Of a stretch of 48,155 bases of DNA, positions 9,406 to 38,677 are shown in pieces. This DNA comes from a virus. The notes below the pieces were generated by a model. It was not told where the DNA came from, did not search any database, and saw only the letters and a list, made by a program, of their open reading frames with translations. How positions within the stretch are numbered: position 1 is the stretch's first letter; each line of letters starts with the position of its first letter. The translations under genes and the position numbers were made by a program. Where the stretch lies: positions 1 through 48,155 of the IMG/VR virus record IMGVR_UViG_3300044949_000351; one strand, given 5' to 3'.

Positions 9406-12400
9406 CTACTTGCCAAGTTCCTTGCGCACCTGCTCCCGCACGCGATTGAACTCCTCGTACGCAGGACGCCCCGCTTCCCGGTAGTAGTCGACGATGGCTT
9501 GGCGCTCTTCGGTGTCACTCGGTGGCACGAGAGCAAGCTCTTCGCGGCGCTCCCGGGCAAGCCCGTCGAGCTCACGCTTGGTGGCTTCGTAGGCGTCCAG
9601 CACACGGGGGTCGGTGTTGACAGGACGCGCTGCCCGGGTCTTCTCCCACTCCTCGTCGGTCCCGTTCTCCTCCTGCCAGAGGATCGCGTCGAGATCGTTG
9701 ACGTGCTTGTAGTAGTTGCTCATAGGGACGTATTCGAAGCCCTTGCCCACGAACCCGCGCACGAGCGGCAGGGCGCGGGCTACGCCGTCCTCCTCCACGC
9801 GCTCCGGGGTCTTTAGCGTGTCGCGCAGGAAGCGGTAGGGGCCACCCCCGAAGGACTCGACGAGGTAGCGATACCGCTCCGGCTGGAAGTCTACGTAGCC
9901 CGCGACAGTCCCCGAGCCGCCCGTCATCTCGTTCATGGACCGCGCCATCCAGTGCCAGAACTGCTCGGTGCTCTCGCGGCCCATGGTGGACTGCGCCCGG
10001 CGGGCGTCGAACTGCTTGTTGTAGATCGGCGTGTCGAAGAAGTTGCGGTTCAGGGCCAAGTCGAAGAACGGCTTCACGGCGCTGGGCATGACTGACCCGG
10101 CGGTGTCCTCGGCGCTGCTGCCACTCGGGCGGACCGGCGACATGGCGCTGAACAGCCCGCGACCAAGGTCTGCCGTAGCACCCATAATCAGGGCAGAGGC
10201 GCTCTCTTCGTTGTTGGCCCCATAGGCAGCTTCAGCGATGCGGCTACCGACGTACTGCGGGTAGGCGCCCATGAAGCCCAGAGGCATCGAGACGTAGTCG
10301 TCGGGTCCGTTGCCGTAGTAGACGATGGCCCGGGTCTGGCGCGTCATGTCATTGATGTCGAGGTAGTCGGGGCGTCCGTCGTCGTCCTCGTCCCCCGACG
10401 TCATGAGGTTCCACAGGGTGAGCGCAGCTCCGATACCGGCGAAGCTCGTCATGACCTTGATGCCGTTGCGCCCTGACAGGCCCATGTTCTTGAACTTGCG
10501 AGCCCCTTCGAGGGTAGGGCTAAAGAAGAAGAACAGGCTGTCGAGCACCGACGACCACTCACCGCGCCGGGTCAGGTTCAGCGAGGCGTCCAGCGCCAGC
10601 TCGGCGGCGTCCTTGCGGCTGATACCGACTTCCAGCGCGCCCTTGTAGGTCGCGAAGCGGCCCAGCAGGTCATACATCTGCGCCGTGGCGTCCATCACCT
10701 CGCCAACCGCATCCAGCTTCTCCCGCGTGGAGGCGAGCAGATCGCCTTCCTTGGCCTTGGCATGGCGCTGGAGGCGCTTGGCGGCGTCCTCGGCGTAGGT
10801 CTCCACGCTCTTGATCAGGGAGTGCCCCACCGAGCCGCCGTCCGCCACCATCTGCTCCAGCAGCAGCTGGTCCATGGCCTGTTCCATGGTCTTGGGGCTC
10901 TTGCCGAACGCATAGCCCGCCACCGAAGACAGCGCCCGGGGGTTGATATTCTTTCGCATGGCCTGCGCCAGCGGCTTGCCGTACGCCGGTCCACCCTTCT
11001 TGGTCATGGCGGCCACCGCCGATGTGTAGGAGTCCATCAGGTCGCGGATGAACGCCGGGCCCGCCATGTAGCTGGGGCTACGGGTGGTCAGCAGCTGCTT
11101 AAGGGTACGCGTCGTAGCGGTAAGCCCCTCCATGAACTTGCCCATCTGCTGGGGCCGCATGTTGGCGAACGCCCGGCGCATGGCCGCGCCCTCGGGGGTC
11201 TTCATGAATTCGATGTAGTAGATGTCACCGCCGTCCTTGACGACCATGAGCTCGTCGGTCTGCATGCGCAGGTTCTCGGCGAAGGCCGTAGCCTTGCCTG
11301 TCGTCGGGTCCTTCAAGCTGTACTTCAGCTTGGGCTTGCCCTTCGTGTAGAACGTAGCGACGCGTGAGAACTCCTGTGGGTACGCACGCAGCGCGTTGAG
11401 GAAGGTCTGCCCCACCTTGTTGGTGTCGGCCCGCAGCGTGGCATAGCTGGAGTCCACGATCAGGTTGAGCAGGGGGTTGAAGGGCATGGACTTGCGCCCC
11501 TTGGCCTTACGCAGCTCGGAGATAGCCGAGCGTCCCGCACCCACCTTGAACTCCGCATGCGGGTCCTGCGTGTCGTCGGTCTGCATGTCGCCGTCTTTGG
11601 CGAAGCCCTTGAGCGGCATATAGAACGGCTGCTCCGCGCGCAGGGCGTCCACGTCATCCTGCGTAAGCAGGCCCGCCTCTACCCGCAGCTTGAGCATGTG
11701 GTCGACGAGCTTGTCGGCTCGCGCCGCGATGGCTTCCAGCTTGGGCGTCAGGCCCCGGGCATCGAGGTCATCTCTGACCTGCTGGGCTTCGGCGTTCGTC
11801 AGGCCCGACCCGCCGTCAGGGAAGTCGCCGTTGATCTGTGCGATCATGGCGTTCCGGGCAGGGGCGGAACGCGCCCACAGGTACATCCCGATGTCGTTGA
11901 TATCGAGCCCGCTGGCCTTGATCGCGTTCTCAAGGGGCTTGATGAACTGGCGGTCCAGCACCTCCTGCTGACCCCCCTTGGCCGCCTCATACAGCCGGAA
12001 CGTCTGCGCGAAGTCCTTGTCTTCGGAGAGCTTACCCAGCCCCAAGGCATCCAACGCCGCGCGCTGGGTGACTTCCGCGTCTTGATACTTGTAATTGAAC
12101 CTGCGGGTGAAGTTGTCGGCGAACGATTGCAGGCGCGCAGCGATCTCCACCTTGCCACCCAGAGGGGCGTTAGGCGTCGAGGGCGGCGCGCCCGTGGGGC
12201 CGCCGGGAGGAGGCGCGCCCGTGGGGCCGCCGGGAGGAGGCGCGCCCGTGGGGCCGCCGGGAGGGGGCGGGGCAGCTTGAGTGCTTCTCCTAGCCTCGCT
12301 GACTGTCGTATCGAGGTCGTACGGAGTCAGGTCTAGGTTGGTAGCGACCTTGTCCATGTAGTTCCTGAAGGTCACTGTCGGCAGGTACTTCTGAGCGCGC

Positions 12401-15400
12401 AGGGTGGAGTAGAACTGACGAATAGCCTTGCCAAGCCGGGAGAAGAACTTCTCCACGACACTTTGCGGCTTTGCGTCGCTCATAGCCCAGCGTGCAGTCT
12501 GGTCCGCATACCACTCGCTGAACGACTTCCAGTACGAACTAAGGGTGTCAGACGTGTACCCTTCCGCTATACGCGTGAGCTTAGCGCTGGTCCTGCCTCG
12601 CAGGCTGTCTACGTGTGCGCGCGCAGTACCCCCCTTCTGGGAAGCCAGCCACTCCGAAAACGCCGCCTTAAGCGCGGCTTTAGTTTCTTCTGAGGCGGAG
12701 TTGTACACAGCTTTTTCGTGGACATGCCCCATTTCGTGCGCCAGCGCCTCCAGCACTAAGGTGCGTTTGCCGCTCGTATCCAAGACAATATAATGTTCCC
12801 CGTCGCCGACCATACGGGTGGAGCCATATTCATTACTGCTTAGCGCGGCGGAGCCTATAGCCCGCATGTTCCCCGTGAACTCGTGCTTATGCGCAGCTAC
12901 ATAGTCTCTGGTCGTAACAAATACTTTAACGCCGGGTATGATTAGTTTTTTCCACCCGCGAATAATACCGGCCAGCTCAGGAGGTATGTCGTCAGATATA
13001 GAGAGGTTATCTTGGTCGTACTCCATAGGAGAACTGTTGTTGTCCTCCTCCTCCTGCTTGTTTTTGATCGCTATAAGGTGATCCAGCTCTGCCTTAGTAA
13101 ACGGCGCATAGTTGCTCCTTTTGGCTAAGACCTCTACGTCTATAGGGTAGTAGTCGGTCCCTTTAATGGGGACGTACACAGGTTCGCCAGTGAGTCTTGC
13201 GTACGCGCGCACAAGCGCAAGATCACCGCCGGAATACGTGGGTAGGCCACCATACCGATTAACCACGTACTCAACAGGGCTTTGCGGCGTATCAGATGTA
13301 TCTTTATTGGAGTACTGCTGTCCGGCGTTGGACATGGTCTGTCCGCGCATCTGGCCTTCGCGGGTCGGCTCGACACCGGCCTTGGACTTCGACGACAGCC
13401 TGCGCAGTTCTTCACGCACGACGGAAGACGGAGCGCCCTTCCGGCGCAGGGTGACTAGCGCCGCGAAGTCCGCGTCGTTGATGCGCAGCCCCTGCCGCGC
13501 CTGCTCCATCTCCTTGTATACCGCCTGCTGCTCCTGCTGCTCAGGCGTGATGTCCCCGGCGGGCTCCGGGTCCACCGTATCCCGGGTGTAAATCTGCTCC
13601 CTGTTGGTAGCCTTGAGCCCCTGCGCGGACGCAGTGCGGCCCTTCTGGACCTTTACGCCTTCCGCGATAGCCTGATCGGAGATAGCCGTCGGCGCGGCTT
13701 GCTCGCCGCGCGCATCACGCACGAACTGGAAGCCCGCTTGGTACGCTGCGCGCTTCTTCGGTGTGAACTTGTCGATGTCTTCCTGTGGCGAGAAGGGTTT
13801 GACGCCCACCGCCTCTTCCAGCCCCTGCCGGAACGCCTTCTGGTTAGAGCGCGCGACGCGCTCGGTGGCTACCGCGTAGCCCTGCTCCAGTACGGCATCG
13901 GCGTCGAACCCCACAGGGGGCGGCGCTTCCGGTTCCCGAGTCGCAACACTCGGGGCGGCCATAGGCTCTGGCGTCGCTTGGGCGCGGCCAGCCGCTACGA
14001 TGGTAGGCAGTTCCGCCTGAGCCTGTTTGAGCGTGAGCCCGCTACTGAGCTTGTACGCCCCCGTATCCGGGTTGGACAGATCAGCGACGGTCCAGATGGG
14101 GGGCCCAGCCTTATCGCCGACGTTGGACAGAGTAGCGGTAGTGCCGTCACTGAGCGTGTAGGTCCGCACTCCGCCTTTCATCTTCGGCATGCCGACGATC
14201 TTGAGGGGCTTCGGCGCGACCATCGGTTCCGGCGCGGCCATCGGTTCCGGCGCGGCGGGGGCGCGCATCTCCGTGATGGGATTACCGAAATGAACGCGCG
14301 TACCCGACTCCCACACCTCGACTGGCATAAGGCCAACCGCAGGGGTCTGTGACGCCGTAACAACGCTATCTTTAATTATCTTCCCCGCATCGGGGCCATC
14401 CACATACTGGACACCGTAGGAGTTGCTCTTGTTGTCGCGCACCACGCGCATGCCGGGAGCGTTCTGCAACTGAAGGGCGCTCAGAGCATTAGCTTGCTCC
14501 GGGGTAACATAAAATGTGTATTCCGACGTCGGTTGCGCCCCCTGCTCTTTCGCGCCGTGCTCGGGGCGGAACGCTTTGTTGCGGGTCGTAGTGCCGTCGG
14601 GGTTCACGACATACGTAGACCCTTTTGCCGTGGTGAACCCCCCTAGGGTTTCGGGCTGTTCCGGCGCGGCTTGTGCCTTGGCGCGACGCTCCTTGGGCGG
14701 CGCAGGTGTGGCTTTGGGCGCCGCTAGGAGCGGCTGCTCCGTGACTACCTGTGTAGTCGGCTGCCGCCGCTGCGTAGCGAGCGAGTCCACAAACCCACCC
14801 ACGATCTCCGACGCTTGCTCCGGCGCCCACCCCGCACGACTGACAAGTGCTTCAGCCATACGGTCAGGCAGGGTATTAAGGTCCGCGCCACGAGAGAGTA
14901 GCTCGTCGTACACTTTTCCCATGCGGATATAAGCTGCTTGCGCCGCAGAGGACCCCCCACCCAAGGGCACTTTAAGCATATCCGCGACAGGGACCCGGCG
15001 GGCGGCGAGCGCCGCCATGTACGCCAACCACTCGTCTGGGTCTGCGGAAGACACGTCCCCATGGGCTTGGAGCGCGGCTTTTATGTCGTCAACAGTCGCG
15101 GAAGTTTCGCCGATGCCGTAGATAAGCCGCTCTTGACGCGCGTCTAGGTTCCCGAAACGCGCGTCAAACTCTACGCTCGCGGCGTCAGCTTTTCGCGGAT
15201 CAGAGCTGTTGCGCTGTCGGTCTAGGCGTTTGAATTCTGCGACCGCTTCGTCGCTACCCAACGCAAGGCGCAGCTTCTCATCGTCACTTGCCTGAGTTTC
15301 TTCTAGCTGGCGCTGCAATTCGTCGGGCGACGCGCGCCAGAGTTCGCCGGGTTCGTAGTGCCCTTCGACTGCCGTAGGAGCTTCAGGCGCAACAGGCACA

Positions 15401-16698
15401 ACGGGCGCAGCGGGTGCTGGCGTAGTCACAGAGCCTTTGGCGCGACGCGTGCGCACCGGCTTGTCTAGTGGAGTGTCGACAGCCCCTTGCTGACCATCAG
15501 GTTGACCAACAGGCCCTGCAACAGGAGCCAGTCCTCCTGCGTCAACAGCTGGAGCTTCGGGGGCAGCCCCTGCTCGTCCAGCCCCTCCGACAGGACCAAG
15601 AACGCCTGCTCCACTTCCTCCGGTGTCAGGTTGTCCAGCAGCATCGACAGGTTCCTCTACGGGGGGCAGCCCGAGCATCTCGCGCACGCGGGAGCGCGCT
15701 ACCTCGGGGTCCATATTGTACCGCCGGGCGGAGTCTTGCACCTGCGCTTCGAGGTCGTTCGGGTCGACGGGCGCAGCAGGAGCACCGTCTTCGGTGGGGG
15801 TAGTGGGAGCGCGGGCGCCACCTTCAAACTGCGCGCCCACGCCACCTATCGTACCCCCGAGCACAGCAGCGGTCGCAGCGGCTTCGCCATACTCCTTGAA
15901 CGCTTCCGCGCTCGTAAGCGGCTCCACCGCCGCAAAGCGCTCGCCAACCTGTTGCAGGGGTTCTGTGACGCCCTCGGCAGCTGCACCCTTTGCACCGCCG
16001 CGCAAGGTCCGCGACACGATGCCGCCCGCAACCTCACGGGCGGGGGCCCCCAGCAGCCGCCCAACACCGGGGATAAACCGGTCGGCAACACCTTCAACCG
16101 CCGCCTGCGCAGGGGCCGCGAGCAGGGAGCGCCCCGCCTCCTGCTTGGTGAGGGCTTCTTGCCCGCCAGCCGTCGCACGGTCCACGTTGGTCCCGACGAA
16201 CATAGGCGCGCCGACCGCCGTAGCACCGAGAAGGGCCCCGGCGGTTGCCCCTACTGGTATGCCAGCCACCGTAGGAGACGTAGCGGCAGCTCCGGCAGCA
16301 GCGCCAGCAGCACCCCCCGCCAGAGAGGCGGCCATCTGCGGCGCACCCTGCGCTAAGTTCTCATACAGGAAGCGCCCGATGCCCGCTTCGCCAGACGTCA
16401 GGTCGCTGAAAGAAGGCGCACCCCCGGGCAGGAGCTGTTCGCGCTTGCGCGCGGACTCTTGCAGCGCCGCCATGTAGGCGGCGTCTTCTTCCGGCGTTAC
16501 CTCACCGAACTGCTTCTCCAGCGCGTACGGCAGCCCCTTCATGAGCCCGGTCTTGGCGCTCTCCAGCCCCGCCATGAACGGCTTGCGCTTCGCGCCGATA
16601 ATCCCCCGGCGCACGGCCTCTTCGTACGCGGCCTTCTTATCGGGCGGCAGTAGCCCTCGGCGATACGCCTCCGCCAGTAGCTCTTGCTTGCTGGCCAT
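9406..16698 (-). CDS. 2430-residue internal virion / polyvalent-type protein with zinc-protease motif
   Basis: The largest gene in the window and the last in the late operon. The N-terminal ~300 residues contain Ala/Gly-rich hydrophobic segments (about 120-170) of the kind seen in phage ejection proteins. The middle (300-1150) is low-complexity Pro/Ala/Gln-rich linker. HEMGH at 1321-1325, within LEALAHEMGHVHEKA, is a zincin metalloprotease active site. A 9-residue GGPTGAPPP linker is repeated about residues 1479-1505. The C-terminal ~450 residues, with a FFFFSPTLEGARKF segment, a hydrophobic segment and an acidic DEDDDGRPDYLD stretch, resemble the large polyvalent-protein-associated domain LPD38. 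Such proteins are thought to enter the host with the DNA and act there. Part of the gene (about 12290-13330) is visibly richer in A/T. Function is inferred; the protease motif is direct. Confidence 0.78.
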   Translation of the reverse strand: MASKQELLAEAYRRGLLPPDKKAAYEEAVRRGIIGAKRKPFMAGLESAKTGLMKGLPYALEKQFGEVTPEEDAAYMAALQESARKREQLLPGGAPSFSDLTSGEAGIGRFLYENLAQGAPQMAASLAGGAAGAAAGAAATSPTVAGIPVGATAGALLGATAVGAPMFVGTNVDRATAGGQEALTKQEAGRSLLAAPAQAAVEGVADRFIPGVGRLLGAPAREVAGGIVSRTLRGGAKGAAAEGVTEPLQQVGERFAAVEPLTSAEAFKEYGEAAATAAVLGGTIGGVGAQFEGGARAPTTPTEDGAPAAPVDPNDLEAQVQDSARRYNMDPEVARSRVREMLGLPPVEEPVDAAGQPDTGGSGAGVLGPVGGAGRAGAAPEAPAVDAGGLAPVAGPVGQPDGQQGAVDTPLDKPVRTRRAKGSVTTPAPAAPVVPVAPEAPTAVEGHYEPGELWRASPDELQRQLEETQASDDEKLRLALGSDEAVAEFKRLDRQRNSSDPRKADAASVEFDARFGNLDARQERLIYGIGETSATVDDIKAALQAHGDVSSADPDEWLAYMAALAARRVPVADMLKVPLGGGSSAAQAAYIRMGKVYDELLSRGADLNTLPDRMAEALVSRAGWAPEQASEIVGGFVDSLATQRRQPTTQVVTEQPLLAAPKATPAPPKERRAKAQAAPEQPETLGGFTTAKGSTYVVNPDGTTTRNKAFRPEHGAKEQGAQPTSEYTFYVTPEQANALSALQLQNAPGMRVVRDNKSNSYGVQYVDGPDAGKIIKDSVVTASQTPAVGLMPVEVWESGTRVHFGNPITEMRAPAAPEPMAAPEPMVAPKPLKIVGMPKMKGGVRTYTLSDGTTATLSNVGDKAGPPIWTVADLSNPDTGAYKLSSGLTLKQAQAELPTIVAAGRAQATPEPMAAPSVATREPEAPPPVGFDADAVLEQGYAVATERVARSNQKAFRQGLEEAVGVKPFSPQEDIDKFTPKKRAAYQAGFQFVRDARGEQAAPTAISDQAIAEGVKVQKGRTASAQGLKATNREQIYTRDTVDPEPAGDITPEQQEQQAVYKEMEQARQGLRINDADFAALVTLRRKGAPSSVVREELRRLSSKSKAGVEPTREGQMRGQTMSNAGQQYSNKDTSDTPQSPVEYVVNRYGGLPTYSGGDLALVRAYARLTGEPVYVPIKGTDYYPIDVEVLAKRSNYAPFTKAELDHLIAIKNKQEEEDNNSSPMEYDQDNLSISDDIPPELAGIIRGWKKLIIPGVKVFVTTRDYVAAHKHEFTGNMRAIGSAALSSNEYGSTRMVGDGEHYIVLDTSGKRTLVLEALAHEMGHVHEKAVYNSASEETKAALKAAFSEWLASQKGGTARAHVDSLRGRTSAKLTRIAEGYTSDTLSSYWKSFSEWYADQTARWAMSDAKPQSVVEKFFSRLGKAIRQFYSTLRAQKYLPTVTFRNYMDKVATNLDLTPYDLDTTVSEARRSTQAAPPPPGGPTGAPPPGGPTGAPPPGGPTGAPPSTPNAPLGGKVEIAARLQSFADNFTRRFNYKYQDAEVTQRAALDALGLGKLSEDKDFAQTFRLYEAAKGGQQEVLDRQFIKPLENAIKASGLDINDIGMYLWARSAPARNAMIAQINGDFPDGGSGLTNAEAQQVRDDLDARGLTPKLEAIAARADKLVDHMLKLRVEAGLLTQDDVDALRAEQPFYMPLKGFAKDGDMQTDDTQDPHAEFKVGAGRSAISELRKAKGRKSMPFNPLLNLIVDSSYATLRADTNKVGQTFLNALRAYPQEFSRVATFYTKGKPKLKYSLKDPTTGKATAFAENLRMQTDELMVVKDGGDIYYIEFMKTPEGAAMRRAFANMRPQQMGKFMEGLTATTRTLKQLLTTRSPSYMAGPAFIRDLMDSYTSAVAAMTKKGGPAYGKPLAQAMRKNINPRALSSVAGYAFGKSPKTMEQAMDQLLLEQMVADGGSVGHSLIKSVETYAEDAAKRLQRHAKAKEGDLLASTREKLDAVGEVMDATAQMYDLLGRFATYKGALEVGISRKDAAELALDASLNLTRRGEWSSVLDSLFFFFSPTLEGARKFKNMGLSGRNGIKVMTSFAGIGAALTLWNLMTSGDEDDDGRPDYLDINDMTRQTRAIVYYGNGPDDYVSMPLGFMGAYPQYVGSRIAEAAYGANNEESASALIMGATADLGRGLFSAMSPVRPSGSSAEDTAGSVMPSAVKPFFDLALNRNFFDTPIYNKQFDARRAQSTMGRESTEQFWHWMARSMNEMTGGSGTVAGYVDFQPERYRYLVESFGGGPYRFLRDTLKTPERVEEDGVARALPLVRGFVGKGFEYVPMSNYYKHVNDLDAILWQEENGTDEEWEKTRAARPVNTDPRVLDAYEATKRELDGLARERREELALVPPSDTEERQAIVDYYREAGRPAYEEFNRVREQVRKELGK
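12187..12267 (-). repeat. three tandem 27-bp units coding a Gly/Pro linker
   Basis: Identical or nearly identical 27-base units begin at 12187, 12214 and 12241 (CGCGCCCGTGGGGCCGCCGG and so on). They encode GGPTGAPPP three times in the large virion protein. The array marks a flexible linker between the protease region and the C-terminal domains, and can vary in copy number by slippage. Confidence 0.9.
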
Positions 16699-18573
16699 TT
16701 ACAGCCCCAGTTGGCGTTTAATTTCCGCGTCGCTCAAGTCGGCGGAGCTCCCGCCACCGCTAGGGGTAGGTGAACCACGGCGAGGACGCCCGCCGCCGCC
16801 TTTTTGCTCTTCGACCGACAGGAGCGCGCGACGTTCGGCATCTGCGCTATAGCGCGCCATCCACGCCTGCGGGTTGGCGTCGTACTCGGCCTTGATACGC
16901 GGATTTTTCGCCAACAGCTGCGGGACCTTGGCCATCTCGGCCTTGTAGAACCGCTCCAGTCTGTAGCCGTCCATACCGCCGGGGAAGTCGGGGGTCCCGA
17001 TGCCACCGCTGTCACGGCGCGCTGCTGCCGCAGCGGCACGACTCGCACCAGCTTCCTGTTTTTCAAACGCGAACTTGCGTTCTGCGAGACCCATGGTCTG
17101 CGCGAACTGACTATCCTGCCGCTGGTCGTCCGCGAGGTTCTGGTGATAAGCGACGCCGCTCTGGAACGCCTGTTTCTTCTCCGCCGTGGTGAGGCCCTCG
17201 ATGTCGGCAAGCTGCTTGAGCGCGTCACGCTCCGCCGCCTTTCGCTCCTTACGGGAAGCAGCCATGAACGGCACCGTAGCGGCCCCGGCCTGACCGGCGG
17301 CCTGCATGAACGACGGCGAGTTGGTGGCCGCCATATTGAACCCGAACTGGGCAACAGCCTGCCACATGTCCTGCTTCTTCTGCGCAGCCATGGCCTTCGG
17401 GTCGAGCTGAGCTTCCGCAGCGGCGGCGAGACGGTCGCGGTATGGCGTCGCTGCATCGCCGCCGTACTGCTTCTGGAGCCGCATGTACTCCTCGATGCCA
17501 CCCTGCAAACCGGTCGGACCGGCAGGAGCTTGCGGCGCGGCGGGGGCTCCCGGGGCGGTAGGCGCGCCGGACACGGCGGCAGGGCCGGGAGCCGCGCCTT
17601 GAGTAGCCGCAAGCTCCGCGAGACCACGAGGCGCAGTGGGGGCAGTCATAGCGGCACGAGGCGCAGTGGGGGCGGCCATAGCGGCGGGGCGAGGGGCGGG
17701 GGCAGGCGTGGGACGTGTGGCCTCCGACCGACTGTCTTGTTGGCGGAAAGGCGCAGCCGCGCGAGTAGAAGGGGAGGGGCGCGCATCGGCAGATAGAGGT
17801 CGCAGGCTGGGGTGCACTGGCACCTCGCCGCCAAACACAGGCGCCAGCGCGCCCTGCACGCCGTACGCGCTACGATCCCGCCCGTATTGGTTCGCCGCCG
17901 TCGCAGCGGCCTCGTACTTTTTGCGGGCGCGTATAGCTTCGGCGCGTGCTTCCGGCGAACCGAAGACAGTGTCAGACGCCGCAGCCAAACCACGACCAAC
18001 AAGACTGTCGCTGAACGGTATCCGTTCCCCCGGCTTGTAATCCCGACGAACCTGATCGCGTACCCCAGAGGCCGGTGAGAAAACTTTTCGCGCCGGGCGC
18101 AGGAGGAAGGGTTCGTCTTCCTCGTCCTCCTCGCCCGCCTCACCGCCCATGGCGAAAGCCACAAGGCCGCCGCCAGCGAAGTTTTCAGCGTCCGTCCCGG
18201 GCTCCGAGAACATGTCGTCGGGGACAGACAGGTCCATGAGGCCGCCCATGGCCATGCCGGGCGGCTGGGGCGGAGGGGGAGCACCCATCAGCGGAGCACC
18301 CATCGGCGGAGCACCCATCGGCGGAGGCGCACCTTGTGGCGGAGCGCCCTGCGGCGCTTGCTGAGGCTGGAATACCTGCTGCGCCACAGTGCCCTGCGGC
18401 TGCTGCTCCATCATCTGCGCCGAGCGCATGCGGTCGATGAACATGCCAGCCAGTACGGCGGCAGTGGGGTCGACCATACCCATGCTGGCAGCTTGGGCGA
18501 TCTTCTGCTTGTTGCCGCCGTAGTCCTTGGCGATCTGTTCCGGCGACTGGAGGTTAAACTGCTTGGTCTCCAT
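16699..18573 (-). CDS. internal virion / ejection-type structural protein
   Basis: A 624-residue protein directly abutting the 2430-residue gene (TAA then ATG with no gap). The N-terminus (about 1-60) is helical. A Pro/Gly/Met/Gln-rich spacer (60-110) has GAPPPMGAPPMGAP-type repeats. Then GGLMDLSVPDDMF and FAGGGLVAFAMGG (110-145) appear, a Gly-rich motif frequent in podovirus internal proteins. After an acidic patch (EEDEEDEP) come charged helices, and a second low-complexity Ala/Pro/Thr region (about 260-350) with repeated TAPRAAM/APTAPRG. The C-terminal 270 residues are predicted helical and charged. No enzyme motif is visible. Its place between other ejection candidates suggests it forms part of the DNA-ejection machinery. 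Confidence 0.6.
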   Translation of the reverse strand: METKQFNLQSPEQIAKDYGGNKQKIAQAASMGMVDPTAAVLAGMFIDRMRSAQMMEQQPQGTVAQQVFQPQQAPQGAPPQGAPPPMGAPPMGAPLMGAPPPPQPPGMAMGGLMDLSVPDDMFSEPGTDAENFAGGGLVAFAMGGEAGEEDEEDEPFLLRPARKVFSPASGVRDQVRRDYKPGERIPFSDSLVGRGLAAASDTVFGSPEARAEAIRARKKYEAAATAANQYGRDRSAYGVQGALAPVFGGEVPVHPSLRPLSADARPSPSTRAAAPFRQQDSRSEATRPTPAPAPRPAAMAAPTAPRAAMTAPTAPRGLAELAATQGAAPGPAAVSGAPTAPGAPAAPQAPAGPTGLQGGIEEYMRLQKQYGGDAATPYRDRLAAAAEAQLDPKAMAAQKKQDMWQAVAQFGFNMAATNSPSFMQAAGQAGAATVPFMAASRKERKAAERDALKQLADIEGLTTAEKKQAFQSGVAYHQNLADDQRQDSQFAQTMGLAERKFAFEKQEAGASRAAAAAARRDSGGIGTPDFPGGMDGYRLERFYKAEMAKVPQLLAKNPRIKAEYDANPQAWMARYSADAERRALLSVEEQKGGGGRPRRGSPTPSGGGSSADLSDAEIKRQLGL

Positions 18574-18576
18574 GCA

Positions 18577-21471
18577 TCACCTGCCCTGAGCCATATTGTA
18601 CATACCGAGCGCGCCGAGCCCGAGGCCGCTCACCTGCGCCCCCATGGAGGGAGGCTGGGCATAGGTCGTCGCCGTGGAGCCGAGCTGGACAGGCACCCCG
18701 CGCAGGAGGTTACTGTAGTAACCCAGCTGCTCCATCGGGTAGTCTTTTTGGCGCAGGAAATCTGCGTACGCCATGTCCAGCTGCTGCTGCGAGAGCTGCT
18801 GTTGTTGTCCCGCGACGCTGCTCTGGGCTTGCAGGCGTTGCATGTCCGCCTGCTGTTGGGTCAGCCCGAGGTTACCGAGTGTGCGTCCGGACTCCAGCAT
18901 CTGGCCGTAGCCCTGCATACCGAGCGTACCACCGAACTGGCGCGACTGCTCCGCGAGCCGTTGGGCTTCGAGGTTCGTCTGCTGGTTAGCCATCAAGGCT
19001 TGCAGCCCGGTTTGGGCGCCAAGCTGCTGCACGCCGAGGCGAGCGCTCAGGTTCTGCTGGCCGACCGTGAGCCCCGTCTGCTGGTTAGCCAGCGCGGCGC
19101 GCATCGCCTGTTCGGCGTTCAGCCCCTGTGTTTGCAGCTGCGCTGCTAGGTTCTGTACGTTTGTCTGCTGTTCCGAGTTCAAGTTCGCGAGCGCCGCTTG
19201 CAGTCCGGTTTGGGTGCCGAGCTCCTGCGTCTGCATCCGCGCGCCGAGGTTCTGCTGGCCGACCGTAAGCCCCGCCTGCTGGTTAGCCAGCGCCGCGCGC
19301 ATGGCCTGCTCGGCGTTCATCCCCTGCGTCTGGAGCTGCGCCGCTAGGTTCTGCACGTTGGACTGCTGTTCCGAACTCAGGTTCGCGAGCGCCGCTTGGA
19401 GGCCGGTCTGGGTGCCGAGCTCCTGCGTCTGCATCTGCGCGCCGAGGTTCTGCTGACCGACCGTAAGCCCCGCCTGCTGGTTAGCCAGCGCGGATCGGAG
19501 CGCTTGTTCAGCGTTCATACCCTGCGTCTGAAGCTGCGCGGCTTGGTTCTGCACCGCCGCCTGTTGCGAGGTGTTCAGGTTGGCAAGGGCCGTCTGGAGG
19601 CCGGTCTGAGTGCCGAGCTCCTGCGTCTGCATCTGCGCGCCAAGGTTCTGCTGCCCGACAGTCAGCCCCGCCTGCTGGTTAGCCAGCGCCGCGCGCATGG
19701 CCTGCTCAGCGTTCATACCCTGCGTCTGGAGCCGCGCGGCTTGGTTCTGCACCGCCGCCTGCTGCGCTGTGTTCAGGTTGGCCAGAGAGGTTTGCAGCCC
19801 CGCCTGTGTACCCAGCTCTTGCGCCTGCATCTGCGCTTGTTGGTTCTGCTGCCCGACGGCCAGCCCCGCCTGCTGGTTAGCCAGCGCGGACCGTAGCGCC
19901 TGTTCGGCGTTCATACCCTGCGTCTGAAGCTGGGCGGCTTGGTTCTGCACCGCCGCCTGCTGTTCCGAACTCAGGTTCGCCATCGCAGTCTGGAGGCCGA
20001 GCTGCGCGCCGAGCCCCTGCGTCTGCAAGGACGCACCGAGGTTTTGCTGCCCGATAGACAGCTGGGACTGCTGATTAGCCAGCGCCGCGCGCATGGCCTG
20101 CTCGGCGTTCATACCCTGCGCTTGGAAGGCCACGGCTTGGTTCTGCACCGCCGCCTGTTGCTCGTTGTTCAGGTTGGCCAGCGCCGACTGCATACCCGTC
20201 TGGGTGCCGAGCTGCTGCACGCCGAGGCGCGCTTGCAGGTTCTGAACATCAGCACTCATGCCAGCGGAACGATCACGTTCGAACTGCTGCTGCGCGTTTT
20301 CGTACGCGCTCTGCAAACCGCGTGCTTGGATGTCCCCGAGCTGTTGGCCAAGAGCCCGCTCGCGCTCGGTAGCCGCCAGCAACTGGCGCGCGCCGCCGTA
20401 CGTACCTTGGCGCGCCGAGCCGAGGTCTTGCGCAAGCTGCGCCTTCCGGGCGTCTGTGACTGCTTCCCGCTTCTGCACATCCAGCACGTTCTGGAAGTAC
20501 GGCGACATGTACTGCTCAGCTTGCGGCTGGCCGAAGATACTCGGCGCGGCCATCTGATACTCGGTCAGATTTCCCGCACCGAAGTCCGTGCGCGCACCCT
20601 GCATTTGCGGGGCGCTAACCGTCTGCGCGCCCACCGAAGACACAGGGCCCATTTGCAGGTCGCGCAGGTTGGCGTTGTAGTCCGTCCGCGCCGCCTGCAT
20701 CTGAGGCGTGTTGTAGGACTGAGCCGCCACCTGCGGAGCGTTCGCCGCCAGATACGCCTGCACCTGCGGAGAAAACCCGGACTGCGCCGCCTGCATCTCC
20801 GGCGAGTCGTAGCTTTGTGCGCCCACCTGCTGGGCGGGACCCATCTGGAACGTAGTCAGATCGGGGCGGAACCCCGTCTGCGACGCCCGCATCTCCGGCG
20901 AGTTGTAGCTTTGTGCGCCCACCTGTTGGGCAGGGCCCATCTGGAACGTGGTCAGGTTAGGAGCGAACCCCGTTCGCGCCGTGCCCATCTGCGGCGAGTC
21001 GTAGCTTTGCGCGCCCACCTGTTGGGCAGGACCCATCTGGAACGCGGTCAGGTCGGGGACGAACCCGGTCCGGGCAGCGCCCGTCTGCGGCGCGGCGTAG
21101 TTCTGAGCGCTGACGCCGTCGGGCGAACGCATCTGGTAGTTCGTCAGATTGGGCATGCCAATCTGCTGGTTGTTCACCTGCGAAGGGGCGTACTGACTCG
21201 CCGCCAGAGACCCGAGCCCCGCCAGCTGGGCGAAGTTCGACGCCGTGGCGAACTGCCCCGGCGTTTGCATCGCCATGGTCTGCTGCTGGACCTGCTGCTG
21301 CTCCGGCGTGAAGCCCGCGATGCGCTGGTCTTGGTAGGGGGTGTACTCGCGGTAAGACTCGGCCTGCGCGCGGTTAAGCAGGTTCTCGTAGTACGGACGC
21401 GCGTACTCCGGCAGGTTCGACGTGGTCGTCGTTACGTTCTGCGGCTGCGGTGCGCTGCTACCACCAGACAT
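18577..21471 (-). CDS. 964-residue Gln-rich repeat protein (internal virion candidate)
   Basis: The N-terminal ~100 residues (SNLPEYARPYYENLLNRAQA, PYQDQRIAGFTPEQ) are like those of other phage structural proteins of unknown role. Residues 107-306 hold six tandem 32-residue units with a core QMGPAQQVGAQSYDSP. Residues 411-806 hold six tandem 66-residue units, each made of six 11-residue steps and rich in Gln, Ala, Asn and Leu, followed by a partial seventh. The C-terminus has PMEQLGYYSNLLRGVPV and a Gly/Met end. An 11-residue periodicity suggests a long, nearly straight coiled coil. With the Gly-rich neighbours it is likely an ejected internal protein that spans the cell envelope, or a rod inside the virion. 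No cysteine or enzyme motif is seen. Confidence 0.65.
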   Translation of the reverse strand: MSGGSSAPQPQNVTTTTSNLPEYARPYYENLLNRAQAESYREYTPYQDQRIAGFTPEQQQVQQQTMAMQTPGQFATASNFAQLAGLGSLAASQYAPSQVNNQQIGMPNLTNYQMRSPDGVSAQNYAAPQTGAARTGFVPDLTAFQMGPAQQVGAQSYDSPQMGTARTGFAPNLTTFQMGPAQQVGAQSYNSPEMRASQTGFRPDLTTFQMGPAQQVGAQSYDSPEMQAAQSGFSPQVQAYLAANAPQVAAQSYNTPQMQAARTDYNANLRDLQMGPVSSVGAQTVSAPQMQGARTDFGAGNLTEYQMAAPSIFGQPQAEQYMSPYFQNVLDVQKREAVTDARKAQLAQDLGSARQGTYGGARQLLAATERERALGQQLGDIQARGLQSAYENAQQQFERDRSAGMSADVQNLQARLGVQQLGTQTGMQSALANLNNEQQAAVQNQAVAFQAQGMNAEQAMRAALANQQSQLSIGQQNLGASLQTQGLGAQLGLQTAMANLSSEQQAAVQNQAAQLQTQGMNAEQALRSALANQQAGLAVGQQNQQAQMQAQELGTQAGLQTSLANLNTAQQAAVQNQAARLQTQGMNAEQAMRAALANQQAGLTVGQQNLGAQMQTQELGTQTGLQTALANLNTSQQAAVQNQAAQLQTQGMNAEQALRSALANQQAGLTVGQQNLGAQMQTQELGTQTGLQAALANLSSEQQSNVQNLAAQLQTQGMNAEQAMRAALANQQAGLTVGQQNLGARMQTQELGTQTGLQAALANLNSEQQTNVQNLAAQLQTQGLNAEQAMRAALANQQTGLTVGQQNLSARLGVQQLGAQTGLQALMANQQTNLEAQRLAEQSRQFGGTLGMQGYGQMLESGRTLGNLGLTQQQADMQRLQAQSSVAGQQQQLSQQQLDMAYADFLRQKDYPMEQLGYYSNLLRGVPVQLGSTATTYAQPPSMGAQVSGLGLGALGMYNMAQGR
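19054..20241 (-). repeat. six tandem 198-bp repeats (66 residues, 6 x 11)
   Basis: The motif GGTTAGCCAG recurs at 19083 and 19281, exactly 198 bases apart, and the protein units at residues 411, 477, 543, 609, 675 and 741 are all exactly 66 long. Units differ by scattered substitutions (for example NTSQQAAV against SSEQQSNV) but never in length. That points to selection on periodicity, with repeated duplication and homogenisation. Confidence 0.95.
20554..21153 (-). repeat. tandem 96-bp repeats (32 residues)
   Basis: GCCCACCTG recurs at 20821, 20917 and 21013, 96 bases apart. The translated units run from residue 107 to about 306 with a shared QMGPAQQVGAQSY(D/N)SP core. The first and the last two units are more diverged than the middle three, a typical sign of array growth from the centre. 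Confidence 0.92.
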
Positions 21472-21472
21472 G

Positions 21473-21916
21473 CTACGCCCCTATCTCATTAGGAGTAACC
21501 GGCAATTCGAACGTCTGCCACAGCGGGGTGAAGCCATCACTACGAAGCACGCGCGTCCAGCCGGGGCGCCCAGACGCTTCGATAGTCTCACATTCGTTGT
21601 CCGCCGCCCACCGGTTAAGGGTGGTGAGCATGGCCTCTTTCCACGCCCACATATTCTCACCGCCGAGGAACATGACGGTCAGCGTGCGCTTACGTGGGTA
21701 GGTCGCGAAGTAGGTGACAACCGCGCCGCAGATGCCGTCGTCGTCGAAGGCGATCCACAGGAGGTAGTCGTACTTCATGATCAGGTCGTAGACGTCTTCG
21801 GTAGCATAGCGCCCGTTGGTGTAGTCCGCCGCGCCCTCGACAAACGGGATCACTTTGTCCCAGATTTGAGAGACATGCTCCTTAGGAACTACAGATACGT
21901 GCATATCGCCAGCCAT
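21473..21916 (-). CDS. GNAT-like acetyltransferase fold, T7 gp13-type virion assembly protein
   Basis: A 147-residue protein whose ATG overlaps the previous stop (TAATG). It shows the layout of phage GNAT-like proteins: MKYDYLLWIAFDDDGICGAV (strand pair), LTVMFLGGENMWAW (the region that holds the CoA loop in true GNATs), then the SGRPGWTRVLRSDGF ending. Podoviruses often carry such a gene beside the internal-core genes, where the T7 counterpart (gp13) is needed for virion assembly. The canonical (R/Q)xxGx(G/A) CoA loop is not clear, so catalytic activity is doubtful. Confidence 0.6.
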   Translation of the reverse strand: MAGDMHVSVVPKEHVSQIWDKVIPFVEGAADYTNGRYATEDVYDLIMKYDYLLWIAFDDDGICGAVVTYFATYPRKRTLTVMFLGGENMWAWKEAMLTTLNRWAADNECETIEASGRPGWTRVLRSDGFTPLWQTFELPVTPNEIGA

Positions 21917-24642: not shown

Positions 24643-26556
24643 TTACCTCCGACCATCAGACCTGACGTCAAGCCGGGGCGCTCCCAACTGCCACTGAACA
24701 CCAAGGTTCTCGGAGTACACCTTCATAGCCATCTGCCGGGCGCGGGCCCGGATAAACACCTGCGCAGTGTATTGCCCCACCGACGTCTGGATGACTCGCT
24801 GTTGATCCGCCGGGTCCGCACCGAAGGAAGAGCCCGGGAAGCTGCGCGGGCGCACTTCGAACGTGACTTCCGGACTGGCCGCCGTGGAGCCGCTGAAGCT
24901 GACGTCCGGTATTACACGACGCGACAGCATGAACTGCTCGCCGTCTCCGAGGTCAAAGTCACTGGACTGGATGTACGACTCCATAGGCGCGCCGTCGTCG
25001 TCCAGCCCGTACTCGTGGTTATACAGGTAGCCGTCCACCGCCAGTGTGTCGCTGTTGCTGGCTTGGGGGTAGAAGCGCAGGGGTGTGTCCAGCCACGCTG
25101 TGCGAGCGAGGCTGCCGTAGTACCAGAGCTTCTCCAAGTGGTTGTACACCACGTAGCTGTCGTTCCAGCTGGACTCGGCGCTGGGGTAGAACCACCAGAC
25201 TTCGTTCCATGCCTCGTTGGTGCCGCAGATGATCTGGTCGATCTGGTCGTGGTTCAGGTTCTGAAAAACATGGTTACGCAGGGTGCAGGGGAGCGTCTCT
25301 ACCCGCCCGGTGTACGCGTAGAACTTATCCTGTCCCATCCAGTAGGTGATGCTGGCCGCAGACGCACAGGCGCGGGGCGAAATGATCGAGATGTTATCTG
25401 CGTACTCTTGTAGCCCGAAGACATCCGTCGTCCCGAGGAACTGCAAGGTGAACAGGTGAGTGTCGGTCCACACGAGGATTTCCTGCCGGGTCGGCAGCGC
25501 GCGGACGATACGGGAACCACGAGAGACGCGCAGGAAGCCCGCCGTGTTCGTGACCTGCGGCTCCCATTGGCCCGGGGTATCTTGGTCCGCCCAGCGGATC
25601 AGCAGGGGGTCGAAGTCTGCCAGACTGGTGCTGCCGAACGGTACGCATCCGAAAGCGAGCAAGTGCTTGTCGTTCTGGGAGACCAGAACCTGCATGACGG
25701 CGGCGGGCACGTCGGCGGCGCTGTAGCCTTCCGCTACCGCGTAGTCTTCCATGCGGATGGCGCGGGTGGCCAGCGCCGTAGCGGGGTCCGTGGTAGCGCC
25801 CCGGTCCCACCAGTACATCGCCCCATTGCGGATGTTCATGACCAGATTGTTGTCGAAGTTGTCGAACCACCAGTCCCGCTGCGGGAAGACGATAGGCGAA
25901 GTCGACCCTAGCCCCCACGTCCCCGTGCCCCACGCCCCGGTGCCCCAGCCGTACCCCAGCGTGGCCGTCGCATAGCCCGGCGCCACTTCGAACCTGATGG
26001 TGATGCCCGTGCCGCCGCCAGACGCTACCGTGGATGTAGCGGCTGTAGCTACCTGAATAGAGAACGAGTCCGCGTCGATGACGGTAATCTCGTGGTTGGC
26101 GTTGATCTCGCTGTCGGGGATGCCACCCACAGTGCCCGTCACACCGGAGATGGTGAGGAAAGACCCGCTATCCGCCTCATGCGGCACACCCAGATTAATC
26201 ACGACGACCCTAGACCCGTTACTGGTCGCGACGCAGTTGTTTGTGTTCGGGGTCGTTATTACCGGGTCATCGGTACGCAGTGGTGTAATGTCGTTAAAAT
26301 AGCCCGACACCTCGATATAGACCTTCTTGTTAGTACCCACCGCCAAGAAGTTGTCCGAAAACGAAGTGACCCAGTTCCACATCTGTCGGCATACACCGAA
26401 GAACGCAGTCGGTGTCGCTTTTGCCCATCCACCCAGCTTCTCCGGGAAGCCAGAGCGGAACCTGATCTTGTCACACTCATACCACCCACCCTCGCTGGAG
26501 TAGCTGGTCTGGTCCCGGTTAACTCCGGGACGGAACTGGAGCTTCAAGAACGACAC
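24643..26556 (-). CDS. tail nozzle / stabilisation protein (P22 gp10- or T7 gp12-like)
   Basis: A 637-residue beta-rich protein. The N-terminal segment (VNRDQTSYSSEGGWYECDKI and FRSGFPEKLGGWAK) followed by QMWNWVTSFSDNFLAVGTN is very like the start of nozzle proteins in many podoviruses. Trp and Gly-rich blades recur along the chain (GYGWGTGAWGTGTWGLG, WWFYPSAESSWNDSYVVYNH), as expected for the beta-propeller of P22 gp10 or T7 gp12. Such proteins form the distal short-tail tube and close it after packaging. The gene follows the long fibre, a usual tail-module order. The exact subfamily cannot be fixed by eye. Confidence 0.72.
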   Translation of the reverse strand: MSFLKLQFRPGVNRDQTSYSSEGGWYECDKIRFRSGFPEKLGGWAKATPTAFFGVCRQMWNWVTSFSDNFLAVGTNKKVYIEVSGYFNDITPLRTDDPVITTPNTNNCVATSNGSRVVVINLGVPHEADSGSFLTISGVTGTVGGIPDSEINANHEITVIDADSFSIQVATAATSTVASGGGTGITIRFEVAPGYATATLGYGWGTGAWGTGTWGLGSTSPIVFPQRDWWFDNFDNNLVMNIRNGAMYWWDRGATTDPATALATRAIRMEDYAVAEGYSAADVPAAVMQVLVSQNDKHLLAFGCVPFGSTSLADFDPLLIRWADQDTPGQWEPQVTNTAGFLRVSRGSRIVRALPTRQEILVWTDTHLFTLQFLGTTDVFGLQEYADNISIISPRACASAASITYWMGQDKFYAYTGRVETLPCTLRNHVFQNLNHDQIDQIICGTNEAWNEVWWFYPSAESSWNDSYVVYNHLEKLWYYGSLARTAWLDTPLRFYPQASNSDTLAVDGYLYNHEYGLDDDGAPMESYIQSSDFDLGDGEQFMLSRRVIPDVSFSGSTAASPEVTFEVRPRSFPGSSFGADPADQQRVIQTSVGQYTAQVFIRARARQMAMKVYSENLGVQWQLGAPRLDVRSDGRR

Positions 26557-35230: not shown

Positions 35231-37525
35231 TTATGCGTTAGCGATGGTGGTCACGGTGCCGGAGGAGCCTCGCCATTTCAGCGCCCCCGCTTCGGAGTAG
35301 AGCGTGCCGCCGGACGACGGATTTCCGGTCGGCGCGGTGCCGATGTTGCCCAACACGATCCCCGCCCCGACCATCGCCGTGGGCAACGAGGTATTGGTGC
35401 CGATCAGTAGCGGATGGGCAAAGTGCGCCATGTCGGCGGTGCCCGGCGCGAAGATCGAGTAGCCGGTGGTGACGCCCGTGATCTTCTGGCCGTTGATGCG
35501 GATACCGACGGCGGTCGTGATCGCGCCCCCGGCGGTTATAGTTGGCGCATTGGCTTGTAAGTGGATGCTGTTGCCGACAACAGAAGCCGCGTTGTTCAGG
35601 GTGATATTGGAATTGTAGGAGGTTATCGAGCTGATCGACCCGGCAAACCGCGTCTCGGCGACTATTTGGACGCCGTTCACGTTGCCGCTTAGTTGGTTGA
35701 TGATCGTGCCTTGGATCAGGTACGGATTGCCCGTGCTGTCCAGACGCTCGCCACCCGTGCCAAGGTTGAGCCCCACCGTCGCGCTGGTAGAGGCGCCCAT
35801 CGCTGCGAGGTTACCGACCGGCGAGACTTGGAAGCGCACGCCCCCACCCGACGTCTGGACTTGCAGCGCGTCGGCGCTCTGGCTGGCGGCCATCCGGACA
35901 ATCATTGCCTCGCGCGACGCCGAGCCGCTCTGAACGCCGAATTGGGCCGTCAGAGCGGTCTGACCGACGTTGAACAGACCGCTAGCGTCCACACGCCAGC
36001 GTTCGACGCTGTTGGTGTGGAGCGTTACGACGTTGACCGTCGATTGCGAGAAATAGCCTCCCCACGATCCGCCGCCGCCGCTAGTCGCCGATGACCAACC
36101 GTAGCTATGTCCCGTACCGCCGCGAACGCCACCAGAGGAGAAATTGATAGAGTTTGTCGACGCGGGGATAATTTCGACCTGAGACGCCGAAGCCGTGACC
36201 TTCGACACCCCACCGATTACAACAGCGAGCGTGTCGACGCCGGAAAGCTGCGCCAGACCGGTGTTGGTGTCGCCTGAGATGTAGAGGCCGGGCGCGGCGA
36301 GCGTACCCGCAATGATGCCAAGCTCGCTGGTCAAAAGGCCGCCCGTGAAGCTGCCAGTGGTGGCCTGATATGACGGCGCAACCCCCGCGCCGTTGGAGGT
36401 CAGGACATGGCCCGCCGTGCCCGCCGCGAGCTTCGTGAGTGTAGTGGCTGCCGAGGCGTAGAGGATATCGCCGGTCGTGTAGGTCGACTGCCCCGTGCCA
36501 CCGTTAGCGGCAACCAGAGTACCTGCAAGTGTAATAGTGCCGGAGGCAGTGATGGGTCCGCCGGACGTCGACAGGCCGGTAGTCCCGCCCGACACATTCA
36601 CAGACGTCACAGTGCCGGAACCCGCAGCGGCGGTCCACGAGGTATTACTTCCGTCGGTCGTGAGTACCTTACCAGAGTTAGCGGTCTGCGACGGTAGCAG
36701 GGCGTTAATGGCGTCGTTCGCAGTGCCTTGGCCAGTACCACCCCGGGCGATAGCCAGCGTGCCGGTGGCGGCGTTGGAGACGTTAAGCGCAGTGGCGTTG
36801 GCGATGTTTACGGAGGTTGGCGTACCCAGTATGGGCGTCACCAACGTCGGCGAGGTGCTGAGAACAACGTCGCCGGAGCCAGTGGCGGTCGTAGCGCCTG
36901 TACCACCCCGAGCGACAGCCAGCGTGCCGGTGGCGGCATTGGAGACGTTGAGGGCGGTGGCGTTCGTCAGGTCCGCCGCAGACGGCGTGCCGAGGTTAGG
37001 CGTCGTGAGCGTCGGCGAGGTGCTGAGGACGACGCTCCCGGAGCCAGTGGCGGTCGTGACACCCGTACCGCCGTTAGCGACGGCCAACGTGCCCCCGAGT
37101 GTAATAGTCCCGGACGTGGTGACCGGGCCCCCGGTAGTCGTCAACCCGGTCGTACCACCCGACACATTGACGGACGTCACCGATCCAGACGCACTGACGG
37201 CAGCCCACGACGTGACCCCGTTGCCGTCTGTCTGGAGGTAGTAGCCGCCGGTGCCGCCGCTGGTCGGCAGGGTAAAGGTCCAAGTCCCGGCGGCGGCAGC
37301 GCCCTGCACCGTGACGACACCACTGGTGCTGCCAGCGAATGTGAGCTGGCCGAGTGCGGACCCCGCTGTGCCTAGGTCCAACGAGAGTGCGGAAACCGCG
37401 CGTCCGGCAGTTAGCGAACTGACCGGCGTCTTAACGGTCGCTCCGCCTTGGACAATAGGCAGGACTTCGGTCCCCGCGAGGGGGGTAGTGGCCGAAGTCA
37501 GTCCAGAGATAGGTTTATCGACCAT
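35231..37525 (-). CDS. 764-residue tail fibre-like protein (shorter fibre)
   Basis: The N-terminus (ISGLTSATTPLAGTEVLPIV) is a common phage fibre start. The shaft contains units with GSVTSVNVSGGTTGL, GTLAVANGGTGVTTATGSG and LTNATALNVSNAATGTLAV, the same building blocks as the larger fibre at 26557-30123. The C-terminal half is beta-rich and non-repetitive (SASQVEIIPASTNSINFSSG, GYSIFAPGTADMAHFAHPLL), ending ALKWRGSSGTVTTIANA, a motif found on fibres and head-surface proteins. It may be a second receptor-binding or side fibre. ATG 37525 is the only good start. Confidence 0.78.
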   Translation of the reverse strand: MVDKPISGLTSATTPLAGTEVLPIVQGGATVKTPVSSLTAGRAVSALSLDLGTAGSALGQLTFAGSTSGVVTVQGAAAAGTWTFTLPTSGGTGGYYLQTDGNGVTSWAAVSASGSVTSVNVSGGTTGLTTTGGPVTTSGTITLGGTLAVANGGTGVTTATGSGSVVLSTSPTLTTPNLGTPSAADLTNATALNVSNAATGTLAVARGGTGATTATGSGDVVLSTSPTLVTPILGTPTSVNIANATALNVSNAATGTLAIARGGTGQGTANDAINALLPSQTANSGKVLTTDGSNTSWTAAAGSGTVTSVNVSGGTTGLSTSGGPITASGTITLAGTLVAANGGTGQSTYTTGDILYASAATTLTKLAAGTAGHVLTSNGAGVAPSYQATTGSFTGGLLTSELGIIAGTLAAPGLYISGDTNTGLAQLSGVDTLAVVIGGVSKVTASASQVEIIPASTNSINFSSGGVRGGTGHSYGWSSATSGGGGSWGGYFSQSTVNVVTLHTNSVERWRVDASGLFNVGQTALTAQFGVQSGSASREAMIVRMAASQSADALQVQTSGGGVRFQVSPVGNLAAMGASTSATVGLNLGTGGERLDSTGNPYLIQGTIINQLSGNVNGVQIVAETRFAGSISSITSYNSNITLNNAASVVGNSIHLQANAPTITAGGAITTAVGIRINGQKITGVTTGYSIFAPGTADMAHFAHPLLIGTNTSLPTAMVGAGIVLGNIGTAPTGNPSSGGTLYSEAGALKWRGSSGTVTTIANA

Positions 37526-38528: not shown

Positions 38529-38677
38529 CAGACAAAGCGCCCCTTTGTCTTGCCTTTGGTGGCGCAGCCGTCAGCGCGGCTCGAAGCGGAGCCGCCCTTG
38601 GCCATCTTGGTAAGCGGCTTACCCTTGTGCATGGCGCGCTCGTGCTTGTGCACGGCAGCGGACGCAGCTTTATCCAT
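38528..38677 (-). CDS. 49-residue basic protein, paralogue of the 37840 gene
   Basis: I chose ATG 38677 (GGAGG upstream, one-base overlap with the glycosyltransferase stop), which makes the protein 49 residues. The long upstream extension to 38785 lies inside the glycosyltransferase gene and is not credible. The peptide has HKHERAMHKGKPLTKMAKGG and SASSRADGCATKGKTKGRFV. The shared ending with 37840-38007 shows these are related copies. Confidence 0.65.
   Translation of the reverse strand: MDKAASAAVHKHERAMHKGKPLTKMAKGGSASSRADGCATKGKTKGRFV

Follow-up and report, generated by a model that had tools for sequence, protein, structure and literature searches.

A 48,155-nucleotide stretch of viral DNA (IMG/VR record IMGVR_UViG_3300044949_000351), hereafter called the window, encodes a 964-aa protein with two long, sequence-unrelated repeat arrays. 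What is this protein, and why does a single polypeptide carry both arrays? The C-terminal array consists of 11-residue steps (hendecads), and an initial annotation, made from the letters of the DNA, suggested that it forms a long rod or tube in the virion or during ejection. Of the parts of short-tailed phages, ejection proteins are to our knowledge the most poorly understood, and we know of few structures beyond those of T7 and its allies.

Here, we describe how the N-terminal and C-terminal arms of this protein change length together among its homologues. The best explanation, which we consider reasonably probable, is that the protein serves a short-tailed-type phage in ejection, as an internal virion protein whose extended N-terminal arm lies along a long helix of hendecads. 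The 964-aa protein probably enters the cell together with the phage DNA.

Results

Repeat architecture of the 964-aa protein

The gene was divided into the following parts:

18577..21471, minus strand: putative ejection protein, whole gene, 964 aa, stop codon included (open reading frame; relatives match PHROG 4287)
21268..21414, minus strand: conserved N-terminal domain, aa 20-68, LPEYARPYYENLLNRAQ...RIAGFTPEQ (alignments; AlphaFold2 helices 22-39 and 56-68)
20578..21153, minus strand: putatively extended N-terminal arm ('tape'), aa 107-298, six 32-residue units (aa 107-138, 139-170, 171-202, 203-234, 235-266 and 267-298; 96-bp TRF repeat, AlphaFold2 pLDDT)
20512..20577, minus strand: tape cap, the last, partial unit, aa 299-320
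20260..20511, minus strand: junction domain, aa 321-404, YMSPYFQ...GTYGGARQ...GDIQARGLQSAYENAQQQFERD
19024..20211, minus strand: hendecad arm repeats, aa 421-816, six 66-residue units of 6 x 11 residues each
18580..19023, minus strand: C-terminal helices and conserved end, with AEQSRQFG (aa 840-847), LDMAYADFLRQKDYPMEQLGYYSNLLRG and GLGLGALGMYN

At 19049-20218, TRF located a 198-bp unit in 5.9 copies that match at 81% and contain no indels, and residue identity within the protein amounts to 0.59 at a lag of 66, 0.28 at a lag of 33 and 0.20 at lags of 22 and 44. These data confirm as gap-free the array that the initial annotation had described as six units of 66 residues, each 6 x 11 and all 198 bp long; the coordinates it gave, 19054-20241, denote the same array in another phase. 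DNA identity between the units is 69-85%, with many synonymous and non-synonymous differences, and the array is therefore no artefact of recent slippage. Among the 36 hendecads, 83% have Asn at step position 2 and the remainder Gly, and 83% have Leu, Met or Phe at step position 7; the initial annotation had noted Asn at the former and Leu/Met at the latter.

On an 11/3 wheel, Asn forms a stripe at 98 degrees and the Leu/Met stripe is centred near 229 degrees, which places the Asn stripe outside the main apolar seam. The polar Asn/Gln core once suggested for the rod is doubtful for this reason, but an amide-lined lumen like that of the phiX174 DNA pilot protein H is possible. The aliphatic residues form two stripes (power of 36 for the second helical harmonic versus 27 for the first), and the heptad frequency has zero power in the window array. 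The angle between the two stripes, about 160 degrees, is too imprecise for deriving the number of subunits. A barrel or sheet, in which each helix has two neighbours, would explain two stripes better than would a simple dimer or trimer. Residues 325-911 contain no proline, and the Pro-free helical arm therefore extends past the repeat array.

The N-terminal half contains a second, proline-containing repeat of 32 residues (typical unit PDLTTFQMGPAQQVGAQSYDSPEMQAAQSGFS), encoded by a 96-bp repeat that TRF found at 20774-21136. The initial annotation had made no link between this repeat and the hendecad array. In the window protein, proline recurs every ~10.7 residues and the hydrophobic step is ~5.3 residues. 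Across sequences, the N-arm periodicity (5.28 residues for hydrophobic residues, 5.32 for Gly/Ala, 10.9 and 5.24 for Pro) is stronger than in shuffled controls, and the peaks of the pooled N-arm autocorrelation (32, 64, 21, 43, 16, 11, 53, 10, 5 and 74) all fall near multiples of 5.33. Given a period of 5.3 residues and 32 residues per 66, there is one tape step per hendecad.

Relatives and genomic context

A scan of IMG/VR yielded 65 loci that encode relatives, and later scans added more. The gene neighbourhood is conserved, in the order PHROG 3287 virion structural protein, 227 aa, 665 aa, 147 aa, 964-aa protein, 624 aa and LPD38 giant; each neighbour was found in tens of loci, the LPD38 giant, which often lies beyond the flank, in 13. 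The neighbours that bear on function are:

24643..26556, minus strand: conserved virion structural protein, nozzle-like by position (PHROG 3287)
21473..21916, minus strand: small acetyltransferase-like/assembly gene, 147 aa, just upstream where present (PHROG 22172/7642; weak match to PHROG 1249 acetyltransferase)
16699..18573, minus strand: downstream neighbour, 624 aa, second member of a putative ejection triad (synteny, 31 homologous loci)
9406..16698, minus strand: LPD38-containing polyvalent protein, 2430 aa, third member of the putative triad (Pfam LPD38; PHROGs; synteny)

PHROG 4287, 'DNA ejection protein', is matched by 19 of 45 homologues (best 6e-30); the window protein itself is unlisted for this family at E 0.1 and aligns over its whole length with homologues that match it. 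A tblastn search of the full 964-aa protein against annotated phages returned no matches, and the named phages were reached via short homologues. One of these, gp27 of Sinorhizobium phage phiM5, matches PHROG 4287 at 6.5e-91, is noted in its record as detected in the particle proteome and is followed by three annotated internal virion proteins. The gene upstream of gp27 belongs to PHROG 22172, which the 147-aa gene of the window also matches. The virion or ejection association proposed at the outset is supported by the PHROG assignment and by the phiM5 record. Homology to P22 gp7 was not supported, as P22 gp7 matches PHROG 598 only and the window homologues match PHROG 4287/6121. The only Pfam match of the 964-aa protein, to CbbQ_C inside a repeat, was sub-threshold and was taken as chance.

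Helix-arm lengths follow an 11-residue phase

Helix-arm spacing was measured from the junction motif GDIQ...QQQFERD to the downstream AEQSRQFG, and the measurement was repeated with HMM-defined anchors and later loci. Distances from GDIQ to AEQSRQFG of 65, 76, 109, 131, 142, 164, 197, 263, 329, 362, 395, 461, 593 and 725 residues are all 10 modulo 11, while the exceptional distances of 83, 116, 226 and 237 share the remainder 6 (-4 or +7). With the HMM anchors, 16 of 37 distinct helix-arm lengths share a single residue class modulo 11 (p = 4e-8), and 25 of the 37 lie in this main class or at +4/+7. When moduli from 5 to 15 were tested, an excess appeared at 11 only. Coiled coils tolerate shifts of 7 (heptad), 4 (stutter) and 11 (hendecad) residues, and the +4/+7 departures thus correspond to shifts permitted by coiled-coil rules. 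The 11-residue helical phase anticipated from the window protein therefore recurs in its homologues, whose lengths are multiples of 11 plus a constant, most exceptions being +4/+7. The 96 homologous helix arms, pooled to 10,315 residues, contain one proline. Hendecad phase and absence of proline are in this sense observed properties of the helix arm.

The two arms lengthen together

The window protein carries six 32-residue units, in addition to the cap, alongside six 66-residue units. Among homologues, the numbers of tape and hendecad units are 0:0, 1:1, 3:3, 4:4, 5:5 and 6:6 (the window protein), and the tape cap is the sole tape unit of the repeat-less forms. The junction between the arms keeps a spacing of 58 residues from YMSPY to GDIQ in every homologue where the motif was found. 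With N-arm length taken from LPEYA to YMSPY, the two arm lengths of 40 complete homologues correlate with a Pearson coefficient of 0.984 and a slope of 0.512. For 66 distinct homologues from later scans, outside the set in which the rule was found (a few perhaps stem from contigs in both sets with different gene boundaries), r is 0.915 and the slope 0.45. When phylogeny is taken into account by independent contrasts, on a 95-tip tree built from the conserved parts, r is 0.96 and the slope 0.494; r is still 0.875 when the ten largest contrasts are removed. The 1:1 unit ratio and the slope near 0.5 are thus observed at the level of units, lengths and contrasts.

Changes in the N-arm and helix arm between sister pairs (dN/dH) include -99/-198, 47/99, -60/-123, 37/77, 6/11, -10/-22 and -3/-7. 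A few pairs, for example 21/0 and -20/0, alter one arm only and count against the coupling. The residuals are one-sided, with N-arms up to 41 residues too long but at most about 6 too short. A tether that has to reach would behave in this way, tolerating slack and not shortage. As a control, the lengths of neighbouring genes were compared with helix length, and no significant positive correlation was found. Most arm lengths derive from metagenome assemblies. The coupling speaks against assembly error being the general cause, because collapsed repeats would drop units from one arm alone and uncouple the two. Overall, the length matching of the two arms is well supported.

A reading of the coupling as a by-product, namely that both arms are disordered Q-rich spacers growing by slippage in repeat-prone genomes, would account for their low-complexity composition and the low AlphaFold2 confidence in the N-arm, but it is highly improbable in view of the near-zero helix-arm proline, the modulo-11 lengths, the 1:1 unit ratio, the one-sided residuals and neighbouring genes that do not lengthen in parallel.

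Predicted structure

An AlphaFold2 monomer model of the window protein has a mean pLDDT of 60 and a pTM of 0.27; at this pTM, the model supports no claims on contacts between the arms. Helix is predicted in the C-terminal arm, where disorder would have spoken against a hendecad helix. The prediction bears out the helix but not its continuity, since it is broken at two sites of each 66-residue unit, near ANL(N/S) and QGMN, with a pLDDT of ~90 around the latter. QGMNAEQA resembles a helix stop followed by an N-cap, and kinks at this motif are possible. If the helix folded back strongly, its axial rise would be altered, and the observed slope would then be a coincidence. Over aa 77-308, pLDDT is below 50 save for one or two residues, which leaves the N-arm without confident structure. 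A PDB sequence search with the family profile gave nothing meaningful, and a PDB fold search with the model of a short homologue gave no matches below E 0.2. A BFVD search returned chiefly uncharacterised phage proteins, plus weak matches to tape measure proteins.

Discussion

Proposed mechanism

An alpha-helix rises 1.5 A per residue. Combined with slopes of 0.45-0.51, this rise implies 2.9-3.3 A per N-arm residue, a value typical of a polyproline-II or beta-like extended chain. The distance per unit is then equal in the two arms (66 x 1.5 A = 99 A; 32 x 3.1 A = 99 A). The simplest mechanism would have the extended arm lying along the helix of its own or a neighbouring subunit; side by side, both must cover an equal distance. 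In such an arrangement, two arms would be joined by the junction of invariant 58-residue spacing: a C-terminal arm that would be an alpha-helix of great length, Pro-free and with an 11-residue phase and two apolar stripes on the wheel, and an N-terminal arm that would be an extended, proline-containing chain with one step of ~5.3 residues for each hendecad (32 per 66). The tape would stitch helices together, the terminal domains staying fixed while the middle changes by whole hendecads. Several helices may assemble into an amide-lined DNA channel, as in phiX174 H, and the protein would be released during ejection. Tape fold-back, oligomer, conduit and release are our extrapolation from the arm lengths and from known systems; by analogy, stitching of helices into an amide-lined conduit is probable.

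Taken together, the protein may be a double ruler within one polypeptide, in which sequence-unrelated arms keep strictly to ~5.3 extended for every 11 helical residues as they evolve, because they lie side by side in a self-stitched conduit, making a DNA channel tunable in 16.5 A steps; we put the chances of this full model slightly above even. As a straight helix, six units would measure ~590 A, which exceeds both the Gram-negative periplasm and the 170 A H tube. An envelope-spanning tube would hence be too long unless bent, staggered or extending past the envelope.

Three further readings were weighed against this one. The protein could be a trimeric coiled coil on the outside of the virion, a fibre or needle that varies in length. 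An S74 (Peptidase_S74, chaperone-of-endosialidase) domain, typical of trimeric fibres, was found C-terminally in short forms (L061, L064), with 3 of 45 homologues carrying it, and is annotated for phiM5 gp27 and Pag-Yong1. However, a Pfam search found no S74 domain in the window protein, the wheel shows two apolar stripes instead of one, and both the PHROG assignment and the position before annotated internal virion proteins indicate ejection proteins, which makes a fibre an unlikely but still serious rival.

About as improbable are two other readings of the coupling. According to the first, the helix arm is a ruler akin to a tape measure protein that sets how long a tail or internal channel becomes, the two arms each following that structure without binding each other. 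Siphophage tape measure proteins indeed share the arithmetic (11, 7, 18), with 11-residue repeats in variable number and an 11-11-18 mixed period (PMC3271669), and the weak BFVD matches point the same way. The genome argues otherwise: a search of the window for tail-tube, tail assembly chaperone and tape measure families matched none, and the families that its proteins do match are portal, nozzle-like, polyvalent and PHROG 'head and packaging'. The composition lacks the Trp/Phe anchors of tape measure repeats, and phiM5 is termed LUZ24-like in the title of a reference (PMC10386132). According to the second, the coupling is stoichiometric, each 66-residue unit being a small domain, a helical hairpin, to which one 32-residue segment binds. 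The predicted breaks at ANLN and QGMN, the high confidence around the second and the stop-and-cap appearance of QGMNAEQA would suit such hairpins, but the coupling persists when lengths change by less than a unit or by non-multiples of it (6/11, -10/-22, 37/77), the slope equals the ratio of extended to helical rise, and the tape step is 5.3 residues.

For an ejection protein with a tape along its helix, dozens of natural variants that keep two arms in a fixed ratio amount to a length experiment run by evolution, in which sequence alone tells which segments are extended and which helical over an equal span; a rise per residue follows for each as a prediction. If true, this would explain how a protein channel is lengthened without redesign, supply nanotube designers with a tunable rod-and-rope module and provide a signature by which other hidden tapes could be recognised from sequence.

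Comparison with known phage proteins

For the helix, the natural parallel is the phiX174 DNA pilot protein H (PDB 4JPP; PMC7354561), a virion protein for genome delivery that, like the window protein, has a hendecad helix with Gln/Asn-rich steps and a Pro-free tube region. The hendecads of its tube are QKELTKMQLDN, QKEIAEMQNET and QKEIAGIQSAT, and 18 of 23 lumen residues are N, Q or R (PMC7354561). Step patterns are alike (QKEIAGIQSAT versus QNLGAQMQTQE in the window), and N+Q make up 34% of the window array versus 26% in H. The window protein thus shows the H-type features of a hendecad helix that is amide-rich and Pro-free. H combines three hendecads with heptads (121 residues), whereas the window array has 36 repeat hendecads; homology was not detected, the family profile matching no PDB sequence, and a length-matched extended arm has not been described for H.

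Tape measure proteins likewise have variable 11-residue steps, with indels of 11 and 44 and a mixed 11-11-18 arithmetic (Belcaid et al. 2011, PMC3271669). They carry Trp/Phe markers, whereas the window array has no Trp and hardly any Phe, and the pooled helix arms have no Trp. Their genes sit between tail tube/chaperone and distal tail genes, unlike the window gene with its nozzle-like, acetyltransferase-like, 624-aa and LPD38 neighbours, and a second, coupled repeat has not been reported for them.

Among short-tailed phages, phiM5 gp27 is a homologous short form with the same gene order; it ends in S74, whereas the window form has no S74 and is enlarged by six unit pairs. Sf6 gp12, likened here by its description, is a DNA-injection protein that forms a decameric, helical injection channel fitting the H tube, with no such repeats reported (PMC4755594). 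As in the T7 gp14/gp15/gp16 and P22 gp7/gp20/gp16 triads (PMC8954989), the window gene precedes a medium and then a very large protein. In the T7 ejectosome, which offers the natural parallel for the tape, the N-terminal part of gp16 is an extended 'molecular tape' that stitches gp15 into a tunnel (PMC8954989); there the tape belongs to a separate protein, whereas the window tape would belong to the same chain as the helix. The 11-11-18 arithmetic is known from tape measure proteins (PMC3271669) and hendecad amide-rich tubes are known from phiX174 H; in the literature searched, we found no report of a protein whose extended and helical arms evolve in a fixed ratio. We therefore regard the matched arms as a new property of this putative ejection protein.

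Arm lengths among homologues

The N-terminal extended arm clearly exceeds the length needed by the helix arm (the C-terminal, Pro-free hendecad arm) in homologues L006/L019, L014, L024, L054 and L058, with 7 N-arm units versus 4.5 helix-arm units in L006, and the N-arm residuals are therefore one-sided. The homologue at L044:5986-7272 carries 11-residue copies in succession (GEKSRQFGADF), which shows growth by single hendecads. In the longest homologues, L052:6010-10314 (1435 aa) and L048:2971-6687 (1239 aa), an additional, second helix-arm array is present with Gly-Phe-rich QFGLQQGQFGQ steps, which also follows multiples of 11 (33, 44, 77).

Other genes in the window

1178-1933 (+), PHROG 1574 gene, first of two
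9406-16698 (-), polyvalent protein with LPD38 domain, 2430 aa
26557-30123 (-), tail-fibre-like gene with 165-177-bp repeats (TRF)
35231-37525 (-), 764-aa gene with 165-177-bp repeats (TRF)
38677-39405 (-), PHROG 1574 gene, second of two
43472-43876 (-), GroES-like co-chaperonin (PHROG 3188)

The neighbouring LPD38 polyvalent protein matches the giant PHROGs 14770, 616 and 10691 and is likely co-ejected. The consensus repeat units of the tail-fibre-like and 764-aa genes are similar in appearance in the TRF output, and the two genes may share a common fibre repeat. The co-chaperonin gene sits within the head-gene cluster, flanked by the portal and major head protein genes. Both PHROG 1574 genes, which lie on opposite strands, additionally show weak glycosyltransferase matches.

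Known relatives

An S74 intramolecular chaperone domain is present in some short, repeat-less relatives, namely at the C-termini of the L061 and L064 homologues and in gp27 of Sinorhizobium phage phiM5.
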